Origin: Myxococcota bacterium
GTDB taxonomy: Bacteria; Myxococcota_A; Polyangia; HGW-17
Direction of reading: 5' to 3'
DNA: 33,393 bases
Assembly: GCA_018821305.1 (NCBI GenBank)
Contig: JAHJMN010000123.1
Location: 1 to 33,393 of the forward strand
Positions 4,621-33,393 of this stretch are shown piece by piece; the first letter of the stretch is position 1, and every line of letters begins with the position of its first letter. The position numbers and the translations under genes were made by a program. The notes under the pieces were generated by a model. The model searched no databases. It was not told the DNA's origin and saw only the letters and a program-made list of their open reading frames with translations.

Positions 4621-4795
4621 TGCTCACTACGTTTCGCTCTATGTGTAAATTTGTCGCTCACTTCGTTACGCTCTATGAGTAAATTTGTCGCTCACTTCGT
4701 TTCGCTGAAATTTACTTGGGGATTGCCGCTCACTACGTTTCGCTGGGGTCTTTTTCAATAATTCAGCGGCCAGGATAACGCTCACTTCGTTTCGC
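4621..4795. repeat. Cluster of GCTCACTTCGTTTCGCT repeats, first block
   Basis: Five copies of a 17-bp word (GCTCACTWCGTTTCGCT with small variations) begin near 4621, 4655, 4689, 4728 and 4779. The first three are 34 bp apart and joined by CTATGWGTAAATTTGTC. Around 4678-4716, AGTAAATTT and AAATTTACT flank one word, giving a stem whose loop is the repeat itself. No ORF or gene signal is present in this gap. Confidence 0.7.
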
Positions 4796-4830
4796 TCATC
4801 TCGGCAAGTGTTTACTTTGAAAGACATTTT

Positions 4831-4982
4831 AAGTTACAAAAGTAACTTTCTCATAAATTGATCAAGGAGAGCGCAGCTCTCCTTAAACCTCTCAGTTGGG
4901 GGGATTCCGACGCGCCCCCCAATCCCCCTTGAACCGGCACAGAGGGGTCAAGCCCCCTCTGGACTCCCCACGCCTGCGGCGT
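4831..4982. repeat. Run of five consecutive perfect hairpins
   Basis: Five inverted repeats follow each other: 4831-4848 (AAGTTAC/GTAACTT), 4864-4884 (AAGGAGAGC/GCTCTCCTT, 3-base loop), 4896-4922 (TTGGGGGG/CCCCCCAA), 4941-4960 (AGAGGGG/CCCCTCT) and 4970-4982 (ACGCC/GGCGT). None is followed by a clear T-run, so they do not look like ordinary terminators. They sit between the two blocks of GCTCAC repeats and resemble a mosaic of intergenic palindromic repeats. Confidence 0.65.
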
Positions 4983-4993
4983 CGAAAACATTC

Positions 4994-5145
4994 CGCTCAC
5001 TTCGTTTCGCTCTATGTGTGAATTTGTCGCTCACTACGTTTCGCTGAAATTTACGTTGAGTTTGTCGCTCACTTCGTTTCGCTCTATGAGTAAATTTGTC
5101 GCTCACTTCGTTTCGCTGAAATTTACGTTGAGTTTGTCGCTCATA
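4994..5145. repeat. Cluster of GCTCACTTCGTTTCGCT repeats, second block
   Basis: Four full copies of the same 17-bp word begin near 4994, 5028, 5066 and 5100, and a fifth broken copy near 5138. The spacing alternates 34 and 38 bp because two linkers alternate (CTATGWGTRAATTTGTC and GAAATTTACGTTGAGTTTGTC). Bases 5146-5228 contain nothing recognisable. Confidence 0.7.
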
Positions 5146-5228
5146 TTCTTTTGATCATCTACTATAGTTGCTTAGTTATCTTGTGCTTTGCTTTATTGTC
5201 AGGGGAAATTTGAAGAGTCAGAATTTTT

Positions 5229-5266
5229 GATAAAATCAATGAAGAAGCGATTCAGGACACGATCTA
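5229..5266 (-). repeat. Stop-codon-anchored repeat (family B), partial copy at the 3' end of a lipoprotein gene
   Basis: On the minus strand it begins with the TAG stop codon of the lipoprotein gene and continues ATCGTGTCCTGAATCGCTTC, matching the 5' part of the copies at 7771-7831 and 33248-33317. A small TTGAT/ATCAA hairpin follows. A convincing closing arm is not seen, so this copy is degenerate or partial. Confidence 0.5.
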
Positions 5267-7330: not shown

Positions 7331-7343
7331 GATATTACCTCAA

Positions 7344-7450
7344 CTAAACCGCTTTCGGAATAAAAGGATCGAAACTAAATTATGGTGAGTGTCAAATTGA
7401 CCTATATTTCAGAAATTCAACACAATCGCATAACTCCGAAAGCGGTCTTG
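7344..7450. repeat. Short (107 bp) deletion derivative of the MITE-like element
   Basis: The ends CTAAACCGCTTTCGGA and TCCGAAAGCGGTCTTG form a 12-bp perfect inverted repeat (ACCGCTTTCGGA and its complement). The following TAAAAGGATCGAAAC and CACAATCG match the inner termini of the full copies. The CCTG/CAGG arms are absent. It lies immediately upstream of the 500-residue lipoprotein gene. Confidence 0.7.
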
Positions 7451-7490
7451 GGCAGATATATACACGGGAATTACAAAAATTCAAGTGGCA

Positions 7491-7528
7491 AAGTATATTG
7501 ATAGTGAAATTTGTTAAAAGAGGAACTA
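7491..7528. repeat. 38-bp direct repeat, copy 1
   Basis: Begins AAGTATATTGATAGTGAAAT and ends GGAACTA. It is repeated with two mismatches at 7831-7868. The two copies bracket a full MITE-like element and a family B repeat. Confidence 0.85.
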
Positions 7529-7773
7529 TACCGCTTCTTTAATAATAAGATTGTGACTCGTTTTAAAGAAACACTTCAGGAAAGAGACCCTGATTTCCTG
7601 TTGCTGCTACTGATTACCTGTTTATCTGAAATTTTTTAACAGGGATTCAGGTAGTCAGGCAAACAGGTAACAGGGTCAGGTCATAAATATCTAATATCAA
7701 TGTAAAATTACAAAAACTTGAAGCAAATATTCACTTTTTAGTTTTCGATCCTTTTACTAATGAAGCGGTCTAG
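7526..7773 (-). repeat. MITE-like palindromic element, full-length copy in inverse orientation (248 bp)
   Basis: Begins CTATACCGCTTC and ends GAAGCGGTCTAG, the reverse of the 1474-1720 copy. The inner termini AAGATTGTGACTC and CGATCCTTTTACTAATG and the CCTG/CAGG arms (about 7588-7682) are all present. It contains no ORF. Its terminal TAG is shared with the start of the family B repeat at 7771. Confidence 0.8.
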
Positions 7774-7831
7774 TGGCCTGTTAGGATTTTTAATAAAATC
7801 CTTCGCGAAGCGAATTACAGGACACGAACTA
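7771..7831 (-). repeat. Stop-codon-anchored structured repeat (family B), complete copy downstream of mscS
   Basis: On the minus strand it reads TAGTTCGTGTCCTGTAA, then a TTCGC/GCGAA hairpin, then a GGATTTT/AAAATCC hairpin with loop ATTA, then TAACAGGCCAC closing against GTGTCCTGT. This gives an outer stem with two inner hairpins. It lies 38 bp past the mscS stop codon, separated from it by direct-repeat copy 2. Confidence 0.75.
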
Positions 7832-10674: not shown

Positions 10675-10823
10675 ATATTAATGAAATTCCAGTGATAGTA
10701 GTGTAGTACTGAAAAACTCCAGTAGCCTTTCAAGTAAAAAGAAAAAGTAAAAGAGGAGAATTAGTAATATTGCGGGAAATAATTACGTCAAGCTGATACT
10801 TGCGGAAATCAGATTAAAAGTAG

Positions 10824-10871
10824 AGAAATTTTAAAACTTCTTGAAAAGATCGTATGCCAGGACAGTAACTA
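10824..10871 (-). repeat. Stop-codon-anchored repeat (family B) at the 3' end of the chemotaxis operon
   Basis: On the minus strand the cheX stop codon TAG is followed directly by TTACTGTCCTG, then CATACGATCTTTTCAAG and a GAAGTTTTAAAATTTC hairpin. ATACGATCTTTTCAAG is also found, in the same orientation, at the right edge of the window. A closing arm complementary to the TGTCCTG word is not evident. The rest of the 10675-10868 gap has no gene. Confidence 0.6.
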
Positions 10872-15095: not shown

Positions 15096-15122
15096 AAACT
15101 CAAAATATGAGATCGTTAAATC

Positions 15123-15183
15123 GTTCGTGTCCTGTAATTCGCTTCGCGAAGAAATTTATTAAAATTTCTAACAGGCCACTACT
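15123..15183 (+). repeat. Structured repeat (family B), complete copy inside the che operon
   Basis: On the plus strand: GTTCGTGTCCTGTAA, a TTCGC/GCGAA hairpin, a GAAATTT/AAATTTC hairpin with loop ATTA, then TAACAGGCCACTACTAG. It has the same architecture as 7771-7831. Two base pairs of the second hairpin stem are changed on both sides, keeping the pairing. It points away from the neighbouring family B copy and follows no plus-strand gene. Confidence 0.75.
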
Positions 15184-15203
15184 AGTAAATTCAACACCTT
15201 GCG

Positions 15204-15268
15204 GTTACTGTCCTGAGAAAAAAATCGGCGAAAAATTTGATTTCCGGTATTACAGGACAGTAACTAAA
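15204..15268 (-). repeat. Structured repeat (family B) just past the cheA stop codon
   Basis: On the minus strand the cheA TGA is followed by TT and then TAGTTACTGTCCTG. The arm GTTACTGTCCTG is matched perfectly over 12 bp by CAGGACAGTAAC at the other end (plus-strand arms 15204-15215 and 15253-15264, 37-base loop). The loop is AT-rich with no clear second-level hairpin. It could act as a 3' barrier or attenuator between cheA and cheW. Confidence 0.75.
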
Positions 15269-18200
15269 TCAGGATACTTTTCTTTGAAGCAGGCGGTATA
15301 CTGATTTGAGCAGTTTCTCCCGATCCAGTTTCAGTTCGTAAGCATCGAATCCAGCTTCAATGCCCTTTTGAACACTTTTATCGTCATCCAGACTTGTGAC
15401 TGCCATTACTGGAAGATTATTATATTTTCCCGATCTTCGAACTCTATCGAGAAGCCCAATTCCATCCAAGTGGGGCATTACAATGTCGGTGACAATAATA
15501 TCAAAAGGCCCATTATCTTCCAGAATGTCAATTGCTTCCAATCCGTTTGTTGCCGTAATTACCTCAAAACCTTCGTTTACAAGATAATCATTTTCAATCA
15601 TTCGGAAAAATGGAGTATCTTCCACCAGTAAAATTCTATATTCCGCAGGATCGATAGTTTCTCTGTATTCGCGAGTTGTAGCAAAACTATCGGGATCAAA
15701 CAATTCAAAAAGTCTGTAAATATTAAGGAGGAGTACAATTTCATTGTCAATCAATGAACTACCGACGATTCCATCCATCTGAATTGTTTTGCGATCCAGT
15801 TGAACACGAACTTCGCTTATATCCAGAATCGTTCTTGCAACAATACACACAGGTTTTCTGACAAGTTTGGGATGAATAACATAGAACTGACCATTAGCGG
15901 AATCTCCTGCCCCAACATCAAGCAGATTTTCGAGCCTCAGGACAGGAACGAACTTGTTGCCCGTTGTGGTAATGTATTCCTTGTTTCCAACAATTTTTAA
16001 ATTTGTCTGGTCAACTTTTTCGATTCTCTTAATCAGGTTAAGAGGAATTGCAAATTTTTCACGAGATCCATTGTCGAAAAAGAAGAGGCTCTGAACTTCG
16101 CCTGTTTCGATACTCTCTTCTTCTTTATGTGCATCAAGTTTCTCGAGTTCATGGAATTTGATGCGTGATTGCTGAATAATTCCTATTGCATCGAGGATTA
16201 TTGCAATTGTTCCATCTCCAAGAATTGTTGCTCCGGAAAATGCCGGGGATGTTTTAACAAGGGAGGAGAGTGGCTTAATAACAATTTCTTCATTGTCAAG
16301 AATACGATCGACTATCAGACCATACTTAAACCTGCCGGCACGGAGAACTAAAACCCTATGATATCTGTAAGTCTGCCTTCGTTCACTATCACTGCTTTCC
16401 CGTAAATCACCAATATTGCTGCGGCGATCAATCATTTCCTTGCCGGTTTCAGGATGGACGAAGGTTTTCCTGATTTTAAGCACGTCTGCAAGATTTATTA
16501 GTGGAAGAAGTGAATCCCTGTGTCTGAGGACCATGTTCTGATTGATTTTTTCAATTTTAACATCTGGATCTCCCTCACGGATGCGGAGTGCTTCCTCAAG
16601 GGCAACCTGATGAATTGCATATGTATGATTTTCCACTTCAAAAATCAGGGATGGTATAATCGCCAGAGTCAATGGCAGCTTGAGATTCATAAGCGTGCCT
16701 TTGCCAAAAGTTGTGTTTATTTCAGCATTTCCCCCCAACTTTTCAATATTGGTTTTTACAACATCCATACCGACGCCACGACCAGAGACATCACTGACTT
16801 GCTCTGCTGTTGAGAAACCCGGAGCAAAAAGCAGATTAACGATTTCCCTATCGGACCCATTTTCTGCTTCTTCTTTAGTAATAAGTCCTCTCTCTATTGC
16901 TTTTTTAGCAACTCGATGTCTATCAATCCCCCGTCCATCATCTTCAACGTCGATGTTTACCATTCCACCTTCATAATAAGCGGATAAGATTATTGTTCCT
17001 TTACGGACTTTGCCCGCTGTTTCCCTGTAGTCCGGGTCTTCTATGCCATGATCCATAGAGTTGCGGATTATATGAGTAAGAATATCAGAGAGATTTTCAA
17101 TAATTGTTTTGTCGAGTTCGACTTCTTTGCCCTTAATAATGAGGTTTACTTCTTTATTAAGTTTGAGTTCGAGTTCTCTGATAACCCGCGGAAACTTTTT
17201 GAAAAGGTTCCCGATAGGCTGAAGTCTTGTCTTCATAATTTGGCTCTGGATGCTGGAGGTTACCCCGTCTATCTGGTGCAGTACGGTGGATAGACCATCA
17301 ACTTCTTCTTCGTTGTTTTTCATTATTCGAAGAAGCCGGTTTCGAGCTAAAACCAGTTCGCCGGCGGTTTGCATGAGGGAATCAAGCAGGGAAGTCTTAA
17401 CACGTACGGTTTCCTCACTTACACCCCGATTTCCATCCGTGGATAAAACCTCGGTTTTCCTTCCATCCTTCATAGCTTCAGATATAACCTGAGTGAGACC
17501 ATCATTTGTCGGGGATTCGGGCTTTTTAGTTTTGACAACGGGTTTTTCCTGCTTCAGGGCTGGCTTCTCTTTTTCTACAACTGGTACTGTGGTTTTAGCC
17601 GGTTTTCCCGTATCCATCGGTTCAATATATTCTTCAGGAATTTCAAGACCTTCAGAGATAAGGTTATTCTTCAATACTGTAGAAATATAGCCTGTTATCT
17701 CAATGGAAACTCCTTTAAGTTTTTCTTCGGATTCTACATTCGGGGATGGAATATGGAGCTCATATACTTTTCCAAGTTTTTCCCATTCTTCAATTGTTTT
17801 CAAAATTTTAGAAGAATTTCCAAAGAAACTCCAGGGAATGCTGAATCGATAGAGTGAATGACCGAAGCGATTCAATTCGTCCAGATTGATAGATTTGGGT
17901 ATTTGTAGTTTTACAGGGGCCCTGATTACCATTATGTCTGGCACAGGTTCAACAACCTTTGGTGGTAACGGTTCATCTAATTCTTCATCTGAACCTTCAT
18001 AATCCGAATCTCCGTCAGAACTAATACCGAGTCTTTGAAGAAAATCCCCAAAATTTTCATCGCTGGAGTAGGCATTTTCCAGAATTGTCCCCAGCATTTT
18101 CAATTGGTCATCTATTACAAAATCCTCACTTGTTTCTATATTTTCAAGCAAATTAACAAGTTTGTCATTACATTTGACCAGAACGTCTATTGTCAGCGGA

Positions 18201-31150: not shown

Positions 31151-33250
31151 ATGAAGATAAGACTGTTAATATTATTGTCCATTTTAACTTTTAGTGCGTG
31201 TAACGGTAAGGATGACTATGAATCCACACCATCCCGCACAGTACAGAGTGAACTTCCAATTAAGAGGGTAGTTCTTTACCAGAACGGAGTTGCTTATATC
31301 GAAAGAAGCGGAAAGTTTACGGGGAAAGTTTTAAGCCTGAGAATTCGCCACGATCAGGTGCAGGATATCTTAAAAACCCTTACAGTTATTGATAAATCCG
31401 GTGGACATGCCGTGGCTATTTCTTTACCTGTTGAGAAAAATCAACTTGCAAAAATGGCGGAACTACCACCGCAGGTGCGGAGAAATGGTGGCCTTCTGGC
31501 TATTGCCATGGCCTTTCGTGGGGCAATGGCAAAGGTTGAAACCAGTGATGATACCTACCGTGGACGGATTGTAGGTGTCGAAAATTTTGGAAATGATAAG
31601 GAAAATAAATACAGGCTGACCCTTCTCAGAAACGGAAAACTGCTTGTTATTTCAATGGATAAAATCAATTCTTTGAAGGTTCTTGATAAAACATTAACAA
31701 TCGGGCTTGAAAAAAGTCTTGATATTTCATTGAACAAGGGAACCTGGAAACCTATTAATCTGGCGATAAATCTTTCCCATGCGGGAAGTCACAACTTAAT
31801 TGTAAGTTATGTTGTTGAAATGCCTATCTGGAAGCCCGCATATCGTCTTGTAGTCGGTGATAACGGTAAAGAAATCCTTCTGCAGGGTTGGTCTGTTGTG
31901 GATAATCTTTCCGGTGATGATTGGCGGAATGTTTATCTGTCTTTAACAGCGGGTACTCCTCTGGCATTCCGGTATGATCTTTACACTCCTCATTCCGTTC
32001 AGCGACCGGACCTTACACCCGCGGTAAATCGGGTTTCGGAAGCACCTCCTGCTCCTGTGGATGCTACTGCCGACGATAGTGAAATGGATGCCGCTCCTGC
32101 TCCCGCCTCGAAAAGTTTATCCATGGATGATAGTAAAAAAGACTACAGTCGTAGGCCCAAAAGGTCCCGCGGCAAATACTATAGCAGGCCAATAATTAAG
32201 AATGAACTGTCTGAAGCTCCCAGGATGGAGATCAGTGATATGAGGAGAAGTTTCAAAACCCTTGTTTCCGGCGCATCAGTGGGTAGTCTTTTCCGTTATG
32301 ATATTAAAAGTCCTGTAACAGTTCCGGATCGTTCTTCTGCTCTTGTTACTCTGATCAATAAAGATGTAGAGGGTGAAGATGTCCTTTATTTTATTTCTGA
32401 ATCCAGTGACCGTGTACCTTATAGAGCGATTCGCTTCAAAAATAAAAGTGGATATGTTCTCGAAAAGGGCCCCATTGCTATTTATCGAAAAGGCCAATTT
32501 GTGGGTGAAGCTTTAGGTGGTGTTATTGAAAAGAACGCCACTGCCTTTGTTCCTTATGCACGTGAAGGAAAGATTCACATCCATGTTGCTCAACAATGGC
32601 TGAATGAAGGGGAACGCCTCCTCAAGATTTCAAATGGAAACGTTGTGATTGAAGAGCGTAATATATATAAATATGTTTATGAAATTGAAAATCGCACAGG
32701 AGAAGAATTTACACTTTATATCAGACGCAATCGAAGAAGCGGCTGGAATCCTGCAAACAGTAAGTCGTTTATTTTTGAAAAAGATATTTATTATGTACCA
32801 GTTAAGTTAAAAACTGGGAAAAATAAAACGGAAATACGAGAGGAAACTCCTGTCCGAAGAACATATGGACTTTATTATTATAAAACTCACACATATCTTA
32901 AACTTTTCATTAAGAGCCCGGATCTTCCAGGTGCTCTTAAAGATAAACTTAAAGAAGTTTTAGATATTTATGAGGAAATAACTCAAGTCAAACTTAAGAT
33001 GGAAGAAATCAGTCGCTCTCGAAGTGTGCTTAATGATCAGCAGTATGAAGATCGTCGGAACCTGGAAGTACTCGGAAAGACTGGAAATAATGATCTACGA
33101 AGGAAGTTGCTGAAAAGAATTGAGAAAATCGCTGATGACCTGAGTAAACTCAATAGAGAATGGGTTGAACTCAATATGAAAAAAGGCGAGAAAGAACGTC
33201 GCATGTATGCTCTCTTTAAAATGATATCCTTCACTGCTCCTTCCAAATAG
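31151..33250 (+). CDS. DUF4139-type lipoprotein
   Basis: A 699-residue predicted lipoprotein (signal peptide with FSAC, Cys17). The N-terminal part, with RVVLYQNGVAYIERSG and then DQVQDILKTLTVID, and the later block beginning MPIWKPAYRLVV are typical of proteins with an N-terminal DUF4140-like and a C-terminal DUF4139 domain, a family of unknown biochemical role. A low-complexity Ala/Pro/Asp then Lys/Arg/Tyr insert lies at about 295-380, and the C-terminal 80-90 residues look like a coiled coil (charged heptads around KLKMEEISRSRS). The ORF extends to 31046, but the ATG at 31151 is preferred because it follows GAGAGGAG and starts a proper signal peptide. The TAG stop begins a family B repeat. 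Confidence 0.82.
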   Translation: MKIRLLILLSILTFSACNGKDDYESTPSRTVQSELPIKRVVLYQNGVAYIERSGKFTGKVLSLRIRHDQVQDILKTLTVIDKSGGHAVAISLPVEKNQLAKMAELPPQVRRNGGLLAIAMAFRGAMAKVETSDDTYRGRIVGVENFGNDKENKYRLTLLRNGKLLVISMDKINSLKVLDKTLTIGLEKSLDISLNKGTWKPINLAINLSHAGSHNLIVSYVVEMPIWKPAYRLVVGDNGKEILLQGWSVVDNLSGDDWRNVYLSLTAGTPLAFRYDLYTPHSVQRPDLTPAVNRVSEAPPAPVDATADDSEMDAAPAPASKSLSMDDSKKDYSRRPKRSRGKYYSRPIIKNELSEAPRMEISDMRRSFKTLVSGASVGSLFRYDIKSPVTVPDRSSALVTLINKDVEGEDVLYFISESSDRVPYRAIRFKNKSGYVLEKGPIAIYRKGQFVGEALGGVIEKNATAFVPYAREGKIHIHVAQQWLNEGERLLKISNGNVVIEERNIYKYVYEIENRTGEEFTLYIRRNRRSGWNPANSKSFIFEKDIYYVPVKLKTGKNKTEIREETPVRRTYGLYYYKTHTYLKLFIKSPDLPGALKDKLKEVLDIYEEITQVKLKMEEISRSRSVLNDQQYEDRRNLEVLGKTGNNDLRRKLLKRIEKIADDLSKLNREWVELNMKKGEKERRMYALFKMISFTAPSK

Positions 33251-33317
33251 TTCGTGTCCTGAAATTCAATTTTTGTCAAAATTGAGCATGTTTACGAAAA
33301 CATGCTATTCAGAACAC
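33248..33317 (+). repeat. Stop-codon-anchored structured repeat (family B) after the DUF4139 gene
   Basis: Begins with the gene's own TAG, then TTCGTGTCCTGAAAT. The outer arm GTGTCCTGAAAT (33254-33265) pairs with ATTCAGAACAC (33307-33317). Between them lie two perfect 8-bp hairpins: TCAATTTT/AAAATTGA (33266-33285) and GCATGTTT/AAACATGC (33286-33305). The inner hairpins share no sequence with other copies, but the three-stem layout is the same. Confidence 0.8.
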
Positions 33318-33346
33318 TACAATAATTTCAAGGTCTTCATTCTTAA

Positions 33347-33393
33347 TGTCCTGTGATAAAAATAGTCGTTACCTTGAAAAGATCGTATTACAG
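33347..33393 (-). repeat. Family B repeat cut by the window edge
   Basis: Plus-strand TGTCCTGT (33347-33354) is answered by ATTACAG at the edge. The intervening CTTGAAAAGATCGTAT matches the copy at the cheX 3' end. The orientation predicts a minus-strand gene ending just beyond the window. Confidence 0.6.

Follow-up and report, generated by a model that had tools for sequence, protein, structure and literature searches.

Stop-codon repeats in a Myxococcota genome are ends of a MITE family very probably mobilised by an ISNCY-like insertion sequence

A repeat word at the stop codons of five unrelated genes

In the window, which is an entire contig of a Myxococcota bacterium (C144, 33,393 bp), one short repeat word lies at or just downstream of the stop codons of five unrelated genes, and an earlier note on this DNA took it for either a mobile element that inserts at TAG or an element of mRNA 3′ ends. 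All five words listed in the note were recovered in place: the window holds nine matches with up to three mismatches, compared with 1.8 expected, and no shuffled sequence reached nine. If the offset is counted from the start of the stop codon to the T of the word, it is 0 for the DUF4139 gene, lipoprotein 2 and cheX, and in these three genes the TAG of the repeat is the stop codon itself. At cheA the word begins 2 bases past the TGA stop (offset 5), and at mscS it has an offset of 37, within the 40 bp claimed. The repeat is also structured, as proposed: positions 33246-33319 fold as a Y (a stem with two hairpins) at −21 kcal/mol (z −5.2), and a search of Rfam gave zero matches at the repeat positions in the window. 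However, the segment 33248-33317, taken in the note for the whole repeat, covers about half of an element that measures 153 bp in other copies and inside which the contig ends.

The words share one orientation relative to the upstream gene at all five genes, as had been noted; this apparent rule is a consequence of the inverted ends. The opposite end of the cheA-side element had been overlooked: TCGTTCGTGTCCTG stands on the + strand at 15121-15134, and its presence shows the word to be a terminal inverted repeat.

A modular MITE family with a TANNTA target

The word TAGTTNNTGTCCTG occurs 609 times in the 5.22-Mb genome, compared with 2 occurrences of the reversed control. It was absent from the one same-genus genome searched and occurred 0-2 times in each of the other 57 relatives, where scattered single words were no more frequent than the control; the expansion is private with respect to the relatives searched. 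The family is modular, with inverted ends GTTNNTGTCCTG ... CAGGACANNAAC. Across 69 copies read with their flanks, the inverted pairs follow 5′-GTT(CG/AC/AA)TGTCCTG ... CAGGACA(NN)AAC-3′, and elements with both ends flanked by TA most often measure 141-142 bp or 153 bp; a few measure 60-62 bp. Each element half is a palindrome or Y in its own right, and chimaeras of the two long types occur (for example, L058 5252 and L059 17543). A 6-bp target duplication is exact in 40 of 88 complete elements, compared with a mean of 7.5 and a maximum of 18 when partners were shuffled 10,000 times. The duplicated word is TANNTA (consensus TAWWTA), chiefly TAATTA, TAAATA or TATTTA.

These elements are short, non-coding and numerous, have terminal inverted repeats and a target site duplication, and share their ends with an autonomous transposon. 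The repeat is thus the end of a miniature inverted-repeat transposable element (MITE) family that is new but of a known kind. No close relatives of the MITE DNA were found in plasmids. In several copies (L051 6004, L144 3468, L152 14059), another hairpin (TAAAACGTATTTCC ... CGAAAACAGTGAGAG) is inserted in the palindromic half of the MITE.

Table 1. Copies of the element in the window and the target read at the DUF4139 gene
Feature	Position	Strand	Remarks
Target copy CAAATA (NNNNTA)	33244..33249	+	last TA (33248-33249) plus element G (33250) form the TAG stop of the DUF4139 gene, 33248-33250
MITE, 153-bp type, cut by contig end	33250..33393	+	starts GTTCGTGTCCTG (CG-type end); Y-shaped module ~33250-33319
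Complete 142-bp MITE	15123..15264	-	between cheA and next chemotaxis gene; ends GTTACTGTCCTG (cheA side) and GTTCGTGTCCTG
Half element	7772..7829	-	CG-type module GTTCGTGTCCTG ... GGCCACTA; downstream of mscS; adjoins other repeat family
Decayed element	10810..10869	-	first G completes cheX TAG stop; inner boundary approximate
Decayed element (GATCGTGTCCTG)	5205..5264	-	first G completes TAG stop of lipoprotein 2; inner boundary approximate

The copies in the window range from complete to heavily decayed (Table 1). The complete 142-bp MITE is flanked by a 6-bp duplication, TAAATC on the + strand (15117-15122 and 15265-15270). For the truncated copy at the DUF4139 gene, the far end lies beyond the contig and is ATTACAGGACATTAAC in full-length copies (L049, L058, L062); the second target copy also lies beyond the contig, so the target here is read from one side, and the consensus TANNTA comes from 98 ends with exact duplications. 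The half element near mscS is an inverted repeat with 93% identity to the copy at 15123-15181, and the cheX-side element resembles full copies in its first 30-40 bp only.

Other repeats share the window. A second family, unrelated to the MITE ends, has arms like CTAGACCGCTTCATGAGTAAAAGGATCGAAA in both orientations (217-463, 1231-1746 and 7343-7774), and the mscS-side half element abuts it. Tandem-like CGCTCACTTCGTTTCGCT units lie at 4621-5155 between the two lipoprotein paralogues, and 42-bp tandem units of the TCGGACTCCCCGGAATTTTTTGGGCCTGA and GGTCGCAAACGCTGATCG types lie at 533-929.

An ISNCY-like insertion sequence with the same ends

A single DDE_Tnp_1 gene was found in the genome; it lies at the edge of contig C216 (L127, 84-1436) and encodes a transposase of 451 amino acids. 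This protein matches Pfam DDE_Tnp_1 and, best by far, NCBIfam ISNCY_1 (E 1e-87), with a score of 294 bits that lies below the curated cut-off of 325; judged by sequence, the insertion sequence (IS) is an ISNCY-like DDE element of the same genome. Downstream of the gene its right end reads ATTTCAGGACAGTAAC followed directly by TATTTA. The stretch just upstream of the gene recurs at six further contig edges, each time running into GTTCGTGTCCTGAAAT after NNNNTA, which makes six left-end sites at the least. The ends of this IS, AC and CG, are those of the 142-bp MITE. The assembly breaks at the IS, which is found at contig edges; the IS length of about 1.68 kb is a sum over contigs, none of which spans it from end to end, and a complete autonomous copy was not found in the first contigs sampled. 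One copy lies at the stop of a flagellar gene (named from a reading of its C-terminus; L131), where the TAA is the first half of a TAACTA target. Searches for close relatives of the transposase in viral contigs and for a sequence match to solved structures found none. An IS630/Tc1-mariner parent was also considered and rejected, as the genome yielded only broken DDE_3 fragments without the MITE ends.

Copy number, inverted ends and target duplications, together with an IS that has the same ends, make it very probable that a non-autonomous MITE family, mobilised in trans by this ISNCY-like element, has the repeat as its terminal inverted repeat. The action of the parent transposase on the MITE is an inference.

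Target geometry and the stop codon

In this mechanism, the transposase would cut at TANNTA (mostly TAATTA, TAAATA and TATTTA) and duplicate those 6 bp. With TA as the last bases of the target and G as the first base of the element, a TAG is written at each junction, reading in from either side. The puzzle of orientation is thereby removed, since whichever gene ends at the element will read a TAG in its own sense. The suggestion of a mobile element that inserts at TAG was right about mobility; its target, though, is TANNTA, and the G in the TAG comes from the element, as its first base. At offset 0, a TAA or TAG stop shares its TA with the last TA of the target, and translation still ends at the same codon; at offset 4, the first TA of the target belongs to the stop, which stays intact within the duplication.

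To place the ends relative to genes, 366 ends were measured in 2.05 Mb of stretches from the genome, with genes called by a simple codon-usage caller. The offsets from the nearest sense stop have maxima at 0 (n = 39) and 4 (n = 14), the positions of the two TAs in TANNTA, and any other offset up to 60 occurs at most five times. The enrichment at stops anticipated in the earlier note therefore holds across this sample: 53 of 366 ends lie at stops, compared with 70 of 3,126 empty intergenic TANNTA sites (odds ratio 7.4, p 1e-21), and the odds ratio is 4.9 (p 1e-9) against TANNTA sites 5-60 bp downstream of stops, where both p-values assume independent ends, although the two ends of an element are not strictly so. 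The enrichment is significant in each half of the sample, and the odds ratio is 8.6 when the control is limited to TAWWTA. In terms of occupancy, about 43% of TANNTA sites at stops are filled (53:70), compared with 13.5% of those 5-60 bp downstream (32:205).

Only 5 of the 39 offset-0 ends have an exact duplication, from which we conclude that most copies at stop codons are decayed or half elements; many are eroded internally with the TAG kept. In the five exact cases, joining the flanks restores TAA or TAG at the insertion codon, and in two of them another end-like sequence follows.

A comparison with a related genome, as the earlier note had advised, shows native stops to be the sites hit. 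The metagenome-assembled genome ZodW_Metabat.263 (L034) has the same gene order and zero repeats. Its cheX ends one residue later, with TAA; its lipoprotein homologue ends KKHGLKG-TAG at the equivalent place; and its cheA overlaps the next gene, whereas 216 bp holding the 142-bp element separate the two in the window. In this repeat-free relative the ends of cheX, the lipoprotein and cheA thus differ from those in the window by no more than a few residues, which means that the insertions struck native stops.

Alternative explanations

A different origin for the TAG would be truncation, in which insertions into genes create a new, earlier stop; any insertion with the TA in frame would yield one. 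Yet cheX and the lipoprotein match the lengths in L034, only 11 of the 366 ends lie inside predicted genes, and in-frame truncations should be few. With just 5 ends having an open reading frame that runs into the element, truncation is a minor source, and as the general explanation it is highly improbable. Selection could instead keep the Y hairpin after stops as a functional RNA element that protects or ends mRNAs. The strong fold (z −5.2) and the excess at stops speak for this, as do compensated stem changes that distinguish sub-families (for example, T-A/G-C in 25/14 copies and G-C/A-T in 19/18; pairs were counted on the consensus fold of the modules that passed the filter, which kept none of the 153-bp type). 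These compensated changes are nevertheless few sub-family differences and represent few independent events, no terminator-like site was found at 33000-33393, and the internal erosion of stop-codon copies that retain the TAG does not fit a selected hairpin. Moreover, of the two features whose absence was to refute the note's reading, enrichment at stops is present and strand bias relative to genes is hardly visible, a split answer: for 248 ends the nearest outward gene end is a 3′ end in 137 and a 5′ end in 111 (control, 765 and 855), so ends face gene starts nearly as often as gene ends. We consider a functional RNA element very unlikely; the repeat is not a dedicated stop-codon or 3′-mRNA element.

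For a MITE moved by the ISNCY-like element, the simplest reading of the excess at stops is neutrality, in which translation still ends at the same codon position, and the over-representation would then stem from near-neutral insertion, not from a preference of the enzyme. A counterpoint is that stops are hit about five times more than target sites 5-60 bp on, for which neutrality alone offers no obvious account. The difference in occupancy could suggest that the transposase or the insertion process is drawn, over and above the TANNTA rule, to stop codons or the 3′ ends of genes, for instance through ribosome release or transcript ends, and stop codons would then be safe harbours by targeting and not by survival. 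Such targeting is unlikely, given that 313 of 366 ends are not at stops, that the neighbouring gene boundary is a start almost as often as an end, and that retention bias together with tight operons, in which targets are hidden in the next gene, could produce the same excess. The mobile element might also be of another class, namely REP/BIME palindromes moved by a RAYT (a Y1 tyrosine transposase): three Y1_Tnp genes are present in the genome, and the palindromic units are often paired head to head. Y1 transposition makes no target duplications, however, and the elements have 6-bp duplications as well as terminal inverted repeats; two of the three Y1 genes (L031, L032) lie between different, GC-rich palindromes, and the genome has a DDE IS with the ends of the MITE. 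Together, the parent IS and the duplications effectively exclude this reading.

Integron attC sites, raised because the word follows stops, were set aside given the inverted ends and target duplications. Separately, L031 holds at 850-2627 a CRISPR-like array in which ATTTCCGCTTCTGAAAAGAAGCGGCTCCATTGAAGC units alternate with spacers of about 36 bp; an IS200-like Y1 transposase gene, which has GC-rich palindromes of its own, seems to interrupt it.

Relation to known elements

The MITE recalls RUP of Streptococcus pneumoniae, the MITE of IS630-Spn1, by description: RUP is a highly folded, intergenic, non-coding element of about 100 bp with TA at its target, and an IS in its own genome carries the same ends, but its parent is an IS630, its target is TA and it has 108 copies (PMC2229807). 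Correia/NEMIS and ERIC likewise have TA at their termini, a target duplication, hairpin transcripts and a high copy number (PMC2229807), with 711 copies of ERIC reported in Photorhabdus (PMC10969869); they differ in their hosts, and an ISNCY parent is not reported for them in these two sources. For QMITE2 of Coxiella burnetii, the review gives no TA-plus-G stop-codon rule (PMC10969869), and our literature search found no description of such a rule or of ISNCY MITEs.

The transposase has 27-31% identity, over nearly its whole length, to ISNCY relatives annotated as ISRm17-like on Sinorhizobium, Microvirga and Marinobacter plasmids (L208-L214). These relatives probably belong to the ISDol1 subgroup. 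On the Sinorhizobium and Microvirga plasmids, most copies read start with G after a TAGNCTA duplication, and the one Marinobacter element starts with G after TAGCTA. Like the elements described here, they combine a first G with a palindromic duplication that has TA at both ends, giving TAG at both junctions, and in the examples seen this combination of a TA...TA target and a terminal G is common to the ISNCY group. They differ from our family in the target, which here is the 6-bp TANNTA, and in the end, which is GTTNNTGTCCTG here and GTGCCCGTCC or GTTTCCGTCC there. A simple geometry explains why a repeat can seem to carry its host's stop, since a G-first element in a TA...TA target always writes TAG. 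Given that ISNCY elements from unrelated bacteria show the same geometry, further apparent 'stop-codon elements' are to be expected, and through the excess at stops one can put to the test a class of transposon for which dense operons hold a built-in, nearly neutral landing site.
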